Source: Balneolaceae bacterium (lineage in GTDB: Bacteria; Bacteroidota; Rhodothermia; Balneolales; Balneolaceae). From it: DNA of 51,836 nucleotides. A program made the position numbers and the translations under genes. Location: NCBI GenBank assembly GCA_007693395.1, contig REDS01000102.1, positions 1 through 51,836 on the forward strand. The letters are read 5' to 3'. Below, one piece after another: positions 37,235 to 39,642 of the stretch (the stretch's first letter is position 1; every line of letters begins with the position of its first letter). Under the pieces are notes generated by a model, which did no database searches, was not told the origin of the DNA, and worked only from the letters and a program-made list of their open reading frames with translations.

Positions 37235-38155
37235 TTAATCGCTATACATTTTGTGTACAATTAACATATGTGGCAAAGTGAGTACACTTATTAAAATAAA
37301 CATGAGCGTAAAAAACATATCCTGAACTCCAAAAGCATTCTGTAGGTAAACAAGAATTAAAAGGCCAAATATAGAAATCAGCGTGAAAGGGAGGGAGAGT
37401 TTATAAAATTTGAATAAGCTGAGCGATTTATTTTTTGCCTTAAAATATTCCCTCATCTCATTGATGTGGCCAGCTGAGTGCCAAATTGCAAAATAGAGTG
37501 CAAAGCCTATTAACGGCCCTGCAAAATAAAAAAGAGCCAAGAGAGTAATTGTATCAGCAATGTAAAGGCGGCTGTTTGAAAACACACCTTTAGTGATCCC
37601 TAAAACTGTAATGGCAAGGTAAATGGATAATCCTGAGTAGATTACCAAAGATGGATCAGAAATCAGAGGTGTTAGCGATCCTACTGAAATATTCATGGCT
37701 TGTTCAAGGATAGGGTAAGTTACAGAGATATCAGAAAAAATGATCAGCAAGATGATATATAAGCCACGAATTAAATGCCAAAACCAAGAAAATGAAGTAT
37801 TTTCTGATAAGTACTCCTCCATATCGGCCTGGCCAAAATGATAGATTGAGATGACGAGAAAAATAAACATTCCCGCAATCGGGTAAAAAATCCATACAGC
37901 ACCAAGAATAAACATTAACAGTAGATAGCTCCCATAAAACAGGAGCTGATCTTTGAACTTCAACTCAATATTGAATATCTCGGCTGCCATAATATGGTCT
38001 ATGGCTCCATGTGGTATACCAATTAGAAAAACACTGACAATAACAACCCAAGGTGCAATTACACTATTTAATTCAGGAGATAATAGAGAGAGCAAAATGA
38101 ATAAAAAACTTACCGGATAAGCCACCGCAAGAAAATGTTTGGATGCTCTAAACAT
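37235..38155 (-). CDS. blh: Beta-carotene 15,15'-dioxygenase, Brp/Blh family
   Basis: A 306-residue polytopic membrane enzyme that splits beta-carotene into two retinal molecules. The conserved histidines of the family are all visible: H49 and H54 (GIPHGAIDHIMA), H106 (YHFGQADME), H226 and H230 (IWHSAGHINEM), H296 and H301 (LPHMLIVHK), which coordinate the iron centre. About seven to nine membrane helices can be drawn. It lies 1 bp after the crtY stop on the same strand, so the two are an operon: CrtY makes beta-carotene and Blh makes retinal. A rhodopsin that would use the retinal is not in the window. Confidence 0.95.
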   Translation of the reverse strand: MFRASKHFLAVAYPVSFLFILLSLLSPELNSVIAPWVVIVSVFLIGIPHGAIDHIMAAEIFNIELKFKDQLLFYGSYLLLMFILGAVWIFYPIAGMFIFLVISIYHFGQADMEEYLSENTSFSWFWHLIRGLYIILLIIFSDISVTYPILEQAMNISVGSLTPLISDPSLVIYSGLSIYLAITVLGITKGVFSNSRLYIADTITLLALFYFAGPLIGFALYFAIWHSAGHINEMREYFKAKNKSLSLFKFYKLSLPFTLISIFGLLILVYLQNAFGVQDMFFTLMFILISVLTLPHMLIVHKMYSD

Positions 38156-38156
38156 A

Positions 38157-39335
38157 TCAGGCTCCGGTAAAGATTCGGTGCTTCATTTTATAAATGGATT
38201 TGAAAAATGGGGTATATGGAAGAGTGGAAAAAATGGATAGCTCCTGGAAAATATTTGTCTTTTCTTCAAGAAAGCGAAGTATAGAGTCGAACCTGTTTTT
38301 TTTGAAAAGATTATGGAAAATTTTTAATGAAATGGCATGATCTGTGTTAAGTATGTTCAGAAGCATCATATCATAAACCCTGAACCTGTACGATGACGAT
38401 TTAGTAACAGATGGCTTTTTATTTTGCTCTAATGCAGATACAATTTCTCTTGACTGATTATGGATTCGAATGAACGTGTAACCGGTTGTTGGTTTGGTTA
38501 AGCCGCCCACCGTGCCAACATTCATTATATTATCGCAATACCATGTATCAAACTTTCGATCTTCCATAGGGATAGCACCTTTCTCTTTTCTTACCACATT
38601 ATAATCACCTTGGTTTAGTTGGTACCTGCTTTTTAAATAATCCTCAATTTCTGCCTCGTACTCATTTTCATTAAGCAGTTCGTCAGAAAAGATAGTGTAC
38701 TCTACCAAAGCTGTATTGTTTGCGGTTGGCAAGACATACATAAATGTAACCCCATTCTTTTGGGGTACATTAAAGTCCATAAAAACTGCTTTATTAGGGT
38801 TAAACACAGCCCCATTTGTTTCAATTTCCCAGCCTATGAAGTGCTGAATAAGAGAAACATCTACTTTAGAATTTTTAAATCCCGGTGATGGCTTTACACT
38901 CTGAAAAACAATTGGCGCTTCGAAGGTGCCAGCCTCAGTTTCAACAACTCCGAAATTATTGCTGCTGTTGAAAGAGTTAATTGAAGTTTCAAGAAAGGTA
39001 ATATTGGGTAACTCTTTTGCTTTTTTAATGATGACTGAAGCATAATCCCCATTTCGAATGCAATTATAATGATATTCAGAGAGTACTTCAGAAAACATAT
39101 TTCCATTAGCACCAACTTCCAGTTCATTCCAGCTGTGATGAATAAAATCGCTCAGATCAAGATTTTCACTCTCCCAGTAACACCATGTTTTATCATTCAG
39201 AGGATTGATGGATTTATCCAATATAAGAATGCGTTTGTTCCTCAATATTGAGGATTGAAGAATGTACCAGATAAGTGTAAGGCCCGCTGCACCCGCTCCA
39301 GCTATAATTATATCGAACCTTGAGTTGCGCTCCAT
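38157..39335 (-). CDS. crtY: Lycopene beta-cyclase
   Basis: A 392-residue flavoprotein of the CrtY family that forms the beta-ionone rings of beta-carotene from lycopene. The N-terminal dinucleotide fold is FDIIIAGAGAAGLTLIWYIL (residues 7-26), followed by ILDKSINPLNDKTWCYWE, the W-rich family signature. Later landmarks are FIGWEIETNGAVFNPNKAVFMDFNVPQ, FMYVLPTANNTALVEYT, KGAIPMED, NVGTVGGLTKPTTGYTFIRIHNQS. Length and motifs are normal. The start is ATG at 39335 with no Shine-Dalgarno. Its leader carries a predicted structured RNA and terminator (39361-39470). Other carotenoid genes (crtB, crtI) are not nearby. Confidence 0.94.
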   Translation of the reverse strand: MERNSRFDIIIAGAGAAGLTLIWYILQSSILRNKRILILDKSINPLNDKTWCYWESENLDLSDFIHHSWNELEVGANGNMFSEVLSEYHYNCIRNGDYASVIIKKAKELPNITFLETSINSFNSSNNFGVVETEAGTFEAPIVFQSVKPSPGFKNSKVDVSLIQHFIGWEIETNGAVFNPNKAVFMDFNVPQKNGVTFMYVLPTANNTALVEYTIFSDELLNENEYEAEIEDYLKSRYQLNQGDYNVVRKEKGAIPMEDRKFDTWYCDNIMNVGTVGGLTKPTTGYTFIRIHNQSREIVSALEQNKKPSVTKSSSYRFRVYDMMLLNILNTDHAISLKIFHNLFKKNRFDSILRFLEEKTNIFQELSIFSTLPYTPFFKSIYKMKHRIFTGA

Positions 39336-39352: not shown

Positions 39353-39389
39353 TTTAAAAAAAACTCCATCACATTATGTGATGGAGTTT
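39353..39389 (-). terminator. Perfect intrinsic terminator in the crtY leader
   Basis: On the minus strand, AAACTCCATCACA and TGTGATGGAGTTT form a perfect 13-bp stem (plus coordinates 361-373 and 377-389 of this region, i.e. 39361-39389) with a 3-nt loop, followed by eight T. The crtY ATG follows only about 18 nt after the T-run. It is the strongest terminator in the window, oddly placed between a leader and the gene it should serve, which suggests attenuation or the end of a separate small RNA. Confidence 0.85.
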
Positions 39390-39470
39390 GCACCTAAAGA
39401 ACAGTCTCAAAACTAAGAGACGCGTGATTTTGATTATTCACACACAAGAAAACTGTAAATCTTTGGGTGC
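39390..39470 (-). ncRNA. Predicted structured leader RNA of crtY-blh (riboswitch-like)
   Basis: Read on the minus strand, the outer stem P1 pairs 39461-39470 with 39390-39399 (GCACCCAAAG with CTTTAGGTGC, 9 of 10). Inside it, P2 pairs 39438-39443 with 39422-39427 (GTGTGA with TCACGC, loop of 10) and P3 pairs 39417-39421 with 39404-39408 (GTCTC with GAGAC, loop of 8). This is a three-way junction, followed without a gap by the perfect terminator at 39361-39389. The P2 arm can instead pair for seven bases with the first half of the terminator stem, a possible antiterminator. The fold does not match any riboswitch class I know. It was folded by eye only. Confidence 0.5.
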
Positions 39471-39550
39471 CGTTCACTAACAAAATACAATTTTTGTTTT
39501 AACAGCTGTTGTTTTGGTTTTGTTGTTATCGGGGAAAACCTTAAAATACT

Positions 39551-39571
39551 ATTGTTGCATACAGCAACAAT
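39551..39571. promoter_or_regulatory. Perfect palindrome between divergent crtY and esterase genes
   Basis: ATTGTTGC (39551-39558) and GCAACAAT (39564-39571) are perfect inverted arms around a 5-bp centre. It lies about 80 bp upstream of the crtY leader RNA and 90 bp upstream of the esterase start. A second, smaller palindrome AACAGCTGTT is at 39501-39510. Both have operator-like geometry; the 21-bp one is the better candidate. Confidence 0.45.
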
Positions 39572-39642
39572 ACATTTATAGATAATTGACATTAAGTTAA
39601 ATCATTTATTTTCAAATATATACAGAACTATAGTTCAATTGA

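Follow-up and report, generated by a model that had tools for sequence, protein, structure and literature searches.

A predicted terminated leader RNA upstream of crtY-blh in Balneolaceae with complementarity to a trans-encoded small RNA

The window, a 51,836-nucleotide stretch of DNA from a Balneolaceae bacterium, carries on its minus strand a predicted leader RNA of about 85 nt, which would run from an alternative-sigma-type promoter to an intrinsic terminator just before crtY. Besides the terminator, the only conserved piece of this leader is a tract of 13-17 nt (20 genomes), complementary to a small RNA (sRNA) encoded elsewhere in the genome. The leader probably acts as a sponge or partner RNA of this family-wide sRNA, with crtY expressed by read-through or from another promoter; a probability of about 0.6 is assigned to this reading. 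Comparison between genomes supports the two predicted RNA genes together with their promoter-like motifs and terminators.

Leader RNA upstream of crtY

The features considered here are collected in Table 1. The same-genus comparison is based on the regions upstream of crtY from 18 related genomes. Many genomes in the sample are MAGs, kinship means that they do not count as independent cases, and the starts and strands of the RNAs are deduced from promoters and terminators.

Table 1. Features of the crtY-blh region in the window.
Feature	Position	Strand	Remark
-35-like element TGAACG, alternative-sigma-type promoter	39471..39476	-	in 18/18 same-genus leaders
P1 5' arm	39461..39470	-	inside promoter spacer (promoter 39476-39450); conserved only in G000/G013
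-10-like element GTTT	39450..39453	-	fixed spacing to TGAACG
Variable 5' part of the RNA, lineage-specific hairpins (P2; 5' arm of P3)	39409..39443	-	unalignable across the genus
Conserved core GAGACTGTTCTTTAGGT	39392..39408	-	antisense to trans-encoded sRNA; 20 genomes
Intrinsic terminator, 13-bp stem and T-run	39354..39389	-	covarying across 20 leaders
crtY, lycopene cyclase	38157..39335	-	PF05834, E 1.6e-53
blh, beta-carotene 15,15'-dioxygenase	37235..38155	-	PF15461 / TIGR03753

The core, with the consensus GAGRCUGUUCUUUAGGG, lies directly 5' of the terminator and is unpaired in the consensus structure. Core and terminator are found upstream of crtY in 20 genomes of two Balneolaceae genera, the second represented by G039 and G053, while the rest of the leader cannot be aligned. 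The terminator shows changes on both sides in 9 of its 13 consensus pairs (20 leaders). A covariance model consisting of core and terminator, run over 92 genomes of the family, gave 20 strong matches, all of them crtY leaders, and a weaker one in G108. This last match, beside an unrelated gene, is the only extra one above 40 bits that the search for a second sponge elsewhere returned; weaker matches resemble ordinary terminators. Of the genomic occurrences of the core 12-mer, those at crtY and those at the sRNA locus are the only consistent ones. The leader always adjoins crtY in the same orientation. Its core lies about 70 to 330 nt from the ATG, the distance being 190-330 nt in G016, G019, G024, G039, and G053. 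In the last of these, a separate TGAACG-N17-GTT for crtY stands between the leader terminator and the gene.

Several local arrangements may be mentioned separately. The match in G108, a Fodinibius-like genome of another genus, is a terminator RNA just past the stop of a lipoprotein gene (L272 1579-1638; G108:C1:897378-897437, minus strand). Within it, GCTTCTTTAGGGCA is complementary over 14 nt to the variant sRNA of the same genome (TGCCCTAAAGAAGC), and the terminator RNA is possibly an independently evolved 3' UTR sponge. In L102 and L103 (genus g13), the stop codon of a glycosyltransferase-like gene is at most about 100 nt upstream of the leader RNA, which might be the 3' UTR of that gene rather than the 5' UTR of crtY. 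Finally, a stretch of about 140 nt bounded by inverted repeats (CGTGARTTC ... GAACTCACG) and an internal terminator-like hairpin separates the leader terminator from crtY in G016 and G019 (L020 and L024), and appears to be a small mobile or inserted element.

The promoter motif, TGAACG (CGAACG in one case) followed by exactly 17 nt and GTT, precedes the leader in all 18 same-genus genomes and would place the transcription start at about 39441. The distance from promoter to core ranges from 58 to 129 nt across the genus, and the intervening sequence differs in both length and content. The TGAACG motif is retained upstream of crtY even where the leader RNA is missing, as in G015 and G004. In the window genome, TGAACG-N17-GTT has six matches, compared with 20 for the reversed pattern. 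Five of the six precede a same-strand ATG and recur before the same genes in relatives. At genes other than crtY the motif lies 61-75 nt from the ATG, the range within the window genome being 64-75 nt, and at crtY 142 nt, where the leader intervenes. The motif thus behaves as a putative promoter that may mark a small alternative-sigma regulon. The genes behind it other than crtY, as judged by reading the sequence, are TonB-receptor-like, YhhQ-like (transporter), and YceI-like genes and one for a small membrane protein (motifs at G000:C27:95, C43:1513, C154:4737, and C195:3488; L222, L223, L226, and L227).

Trans-encoded small RNA

In most genomes of the genus, the second occurrence of the core is the antisense of an independent gene at another locus, and the complement carried by the predicted sRNA reads CCCUAAAGAACAGYCUC. 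This RNA of about 80 nt would consist of a hairpin (UUUGGUAACCGAAAGGUACCAAA), a single-stranded segment (UGCCCUAAAGAAC), and a terminator with the 5' arm CAGYCUCAGGC. Its CCAAAUGCCCUAAAGA segment is nearly invariant and its hairpin arms covary. In the six genomes examined for context, the locus lies between a gene of about 355-370 aa on one side and a converging gene of about 470 aa with a signal peptide on the other. Nearly all sRNA genes examined are preceded by GNAAC-N~16-CGTA, with G002 departing in the -10 element. This arrangement (-35 AAC, a spacer of about 16 nt, -10 CGTA) is typical of ECF-type promoters, to which it is provisionally assigned.

A covariance model of the sRNA, run over 129 genomes of the order, detects it in 65, all of one family (65 of 92), in single copy apart from one weak second match. 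A scan for CCAAATGCCCTAAAGAAMAR across 84,980 species returned 38 matches, most of them in records named Balneolaceae, Balneola, Gracilimonas, Fodinibius, or Rhodohalobacter. In other genera the sRNA keeps UGCCCUAAAGAA and has a different terminator stem, which indicates that the sRNA is older than the lineage-specific form of it matched by the leader. The sRNA loci belong to no Rfam family, with only chance matches below the gathering score, and the literature searched contained no paper on small RNAs in Balneolaceae and nothing relevant on such RNAs in the group. A search for mRNA targets via CTTTAGGGCA in four genomes revealed no conserved 5' UTR site; besides the sRNA locus, one CTTTAGGGCA site is shared by two genomes and is antisense to two neighbouring genes. 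Hfq (PF17209) was absent from the seven genomes tested, with control genomes positive, so the two RNAs do not appear to form an Hfq-dependent pair, and another chaperone is possible.

Complementarity between leader and sRNA

Seventeen genomes of the genus have both RNAs, and in every one of them the leader can form 16-24 consecutive pairs with the sRNA of its own genome, including strict Watson-Crick runs of 12-20 nt. Each of these 17 duplexes is better than those of all 100 dinucleotide shuffles of the leader, and by chance about 1e-4 matches of 13 nt would be expected between two RNAs of this kind. The pairing registers extend differently between genomes, with G-U pairs. In G002, whose leader reads GAGGCTGTCTTTAGGG and whose sRNA reads CCCTAAAGACAGCCTC, the same base is deleted in both and complementarity remains perfect; the two loci are about 112 kb apart on the same contig. 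At the variable position R, a leader A occurs with an sRNA U in seven of seven cases and a leader G with C or U (Fisher 0.017, related genomes counted as independent). The 97% complete genome G018 has neither leader nor sRNA, and a leader with no detected sRNA is seen in G016 and G053, whose assemblies are 86% and 76% complete. This comparison supports the view that leader-sRNA complementarity is maintained by selection.

The crtY-blh operon and rhodopsin

Pfam and NCBIfam uphold the identities of crtY and blh proposed by the sequence-only reading, and the window genome also carries a rhodopsin. Rhodopsin is present in 16 of 18 leader-bearing genomes of the genus, compared with one of the four leaderless genomes with a readable region upstream of crtY (G015, and not G004, G011, or G018). 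A strict association of the leader with retinal is weakened by G006 and G012, which keep the leader with neither rhodopsin nor an adjacent blh, and by G039, which has the leader and no rhodopsin. The first two cases tie the leader to crtY in the first place.

A palindrome, CTATTGTT-N-AACAATAG followed by TAT, is located at 39550-39572 on the minus strand and also in L004, L005, L006, and L007. It lies about 75-100 nt upstream of TGAACG and is kept in the five closest species. It may represent an operator or a second promoter, serving either the crtY operon or the divergent esterase gene.

Proposed mechanism and alternative explanations

In the proposed mechanism, the core would pair over 16-24 nt with the trans-encoded sRNA, starting at its single-stranded UGCCCUAAA and invading the 5' arm of its terminator stem. 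Most leader molecules would act as a sponge, titrating or destabilising the sRNA. The crtY-blh operon would be expressed from the read-through fraction or from another promoter, which would tie sRNA activity to transcription of the operon. That both RNAs are transcribed, that titration takes place, and in which direction regulation runs are inferred. The leader has what a sponge of the UpsM or ChiZ type shows at the level of sequence, namely a location before a gene, a promoter and a terminator of its own, and maintained complementarity. The separate crtY promoter of G053 and the five genomes with a core-to-ATG distance of 190-330 nt favour an RNA acting in trans, that is, a sponge. The constant adjacency to crtY and the constant orientation exceed what action in trans alone would need, and speak against a pure trans sponge.

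The same pairing evidence is compatible with a leader that is the target rather than the sponge: the trans-encoded sRNA would bind the core while the crtY leader is being transcribed and alter, in cis, terminator read-through or the stability or processing of the crtY-blh transcript. The order promoter-leader-terminator-crtY is kept in most of the genus, so that crtY seems to depend on read-through and a cis effect would be equally natural; for StsR, too, both trans and cis effects on the dcw leader are described (PMC8307010). However, the core lies outside the terminator stem and no antiterminator or alternative pairing is conserved, which leaves sRNA-induced antitermination with no visible structural basis, and crtY of G053 has its own promoter below the terminator. 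Cis control is therefore held to be a real but clearly less probable option, and it is compatible with the sponge or partner role. A combination of both, in which an ECF-driven sRNA sets leader read-through, the terminated leader titrates the sRNA, and this reciprocal Hfq-free loop couples envelope or photo-oxidative stress to carotenoid and retinal synthesis, is rated slightly less probable again. It is also conceivable, though improbable, that the core is kept for another reason, such as protein binding or an inverted duplication of the sRNA locus with gene conversion, and that its complementarity is unused. The core is exactly antisense to a segment of the sRNA gene, which an inverted duplication could have produced, and related genomes are not independent; yet the similarity between the two loci is confined to a tract of 17 nt with unrelated flanks, the varying registers with their G-U pairs do not fit this view, and near-complete G018, which lacks the sRNA, lacks the leader as well. 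Slightly less probable again is an ordinary terminator before crtY whose RNA has no regulatory role. Intergenic terminators are common and the RNA is known from sequence alone, but the core is kept in 20 genomes of two genera far above its flanks and shares a deletion with the sRNA in G002.

The least credible explanation is the one preferred by the sequence-only reading, namely a ligand-binding riboswitch or another sensory attenuator built on a three-way junction. The structures it described are present on the minus strand: an outer stem (P1) with nine of ten pairs (39470-39461 with 39400-39391), two enclosed hairpins (P2 and P3), and a perfect 13-bp terminator stem (39389-39361) followed by a T-run to about 39354, some 18 nt before the crtY ATG (39335). 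The single-sequence fold is strong (-42.9 kcal/mol for the 128-nt stretch against -22.9, sd 3.15, for shuffles; z -6.35), and a terminator does precede the gene. However, the three-way junction is not kept across the genus. P1 pairing beats shuffles of the promoter spacer only in the window genome (G000) and the sister species G013, where fractions of 0.000 and 0.010 of the shuffles pair as well, compared with 0.07-0.98 in the 16 others. The 5' arm of P1 falls within the spacer and thus precedes the inferred start, so that the transcript probably lacks it; a leader folded from about 39441 still forms the inner hairpins and the terminator (-31.7). P3 can be recognised in roughly one leader in three, the sequence of P2 is not conserved, and both are found only among the closest relatives. 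The suggested antiterminator (TGTGTGA/TCACATA) did not hold up either: across 18 leaders neither this nor any other alternative pairing of core and terminator is conserved, and the terminator 5' arm has no consistent alternative partner. The window matches no Rfam family at the gathering score, and the strongest conservation falls on an unstructured core that is antisense to an sRNA. The other half of the sequence-only reading, a small RNA in its own right that ends just before crtY, is better supported, by the putative promoter of its own, the covarying terminator, the variable distance from core to ATG, and the promoter in G053. That reading had overlooked the conserved core (39408-39392) and the complementary sRNA encoded in trans.

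Comparison with known systems

The leader and the sRNA, the latter previously undescribed, represent two RNA families outside Rfam, both in Balneolaceae, and co-deletion at two unlinked loci forms part of the comparative evidence for their pairing. They would provide a concrete case of sRNA-sRNA regulation in a lineage in which no Hfq was found, linking an ECF-type sRNA to the carotenoid/retinal operon of rhodopsin-bearing bacteria.

In antisense-RNA-controlled attenuation, as in plasmids pT181 and pIP501, cis-encoded antisense RNAs act through an antiterminator. The feature in common is the pairing of leader and antisense RNA close to a terminator, whereas the partner of the crtY leader is trans-encoded and no antiterminator is conserved. 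The sigma-E-type sRNAs MicA and RybB are short and possess their own terminator and an ECF-type promoter; the Balneolaceae sRNA shares the promoter type and the terminator and has no homology to them.

The closest parallels are leader-derived RNAs. In Rhodobacter sphaeroides, UpsM is an sRNA that arises when transcription of the dcw operon ends at an intrinsic terminator in its 5' leader (PMC5089854, PMC8307010), and the operon behind it, with mraZ, is expressed via about 1% read-through (PMC5089854). StsR, a trans-encoded sRNA driven by a stress sigma factor, pairs with UpsM and affects dcw in trans and in cis (PMC8307010). A terminated leader RNA, a read-through-dependent operon, and a trans-encoded sRNA partner would thus be common to both systems. 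The operon, phylum, and sequences are different, UpsM and StsR bind Hfq whereas none was found here, and the crtY pair is so far a matter of sequence comparison. In Escherichia coli, premature termination within a 5' UTR yields the short RNAs ChiZ, a sponge of ChiX, and IspZ, a sponge of OxyS; the end of IspZ is likely an intrinsic terminator, and that of ChiZ arises by Rho-dependent termination (PMC7815308). The ChiZ-ChiX and IspZ-OxyS pairs are Hfq-bound and unrelated in sequence and genes to the present one, and share with it the principle of a 5' UTR-derived sponge of a trans-encoded sRNA.
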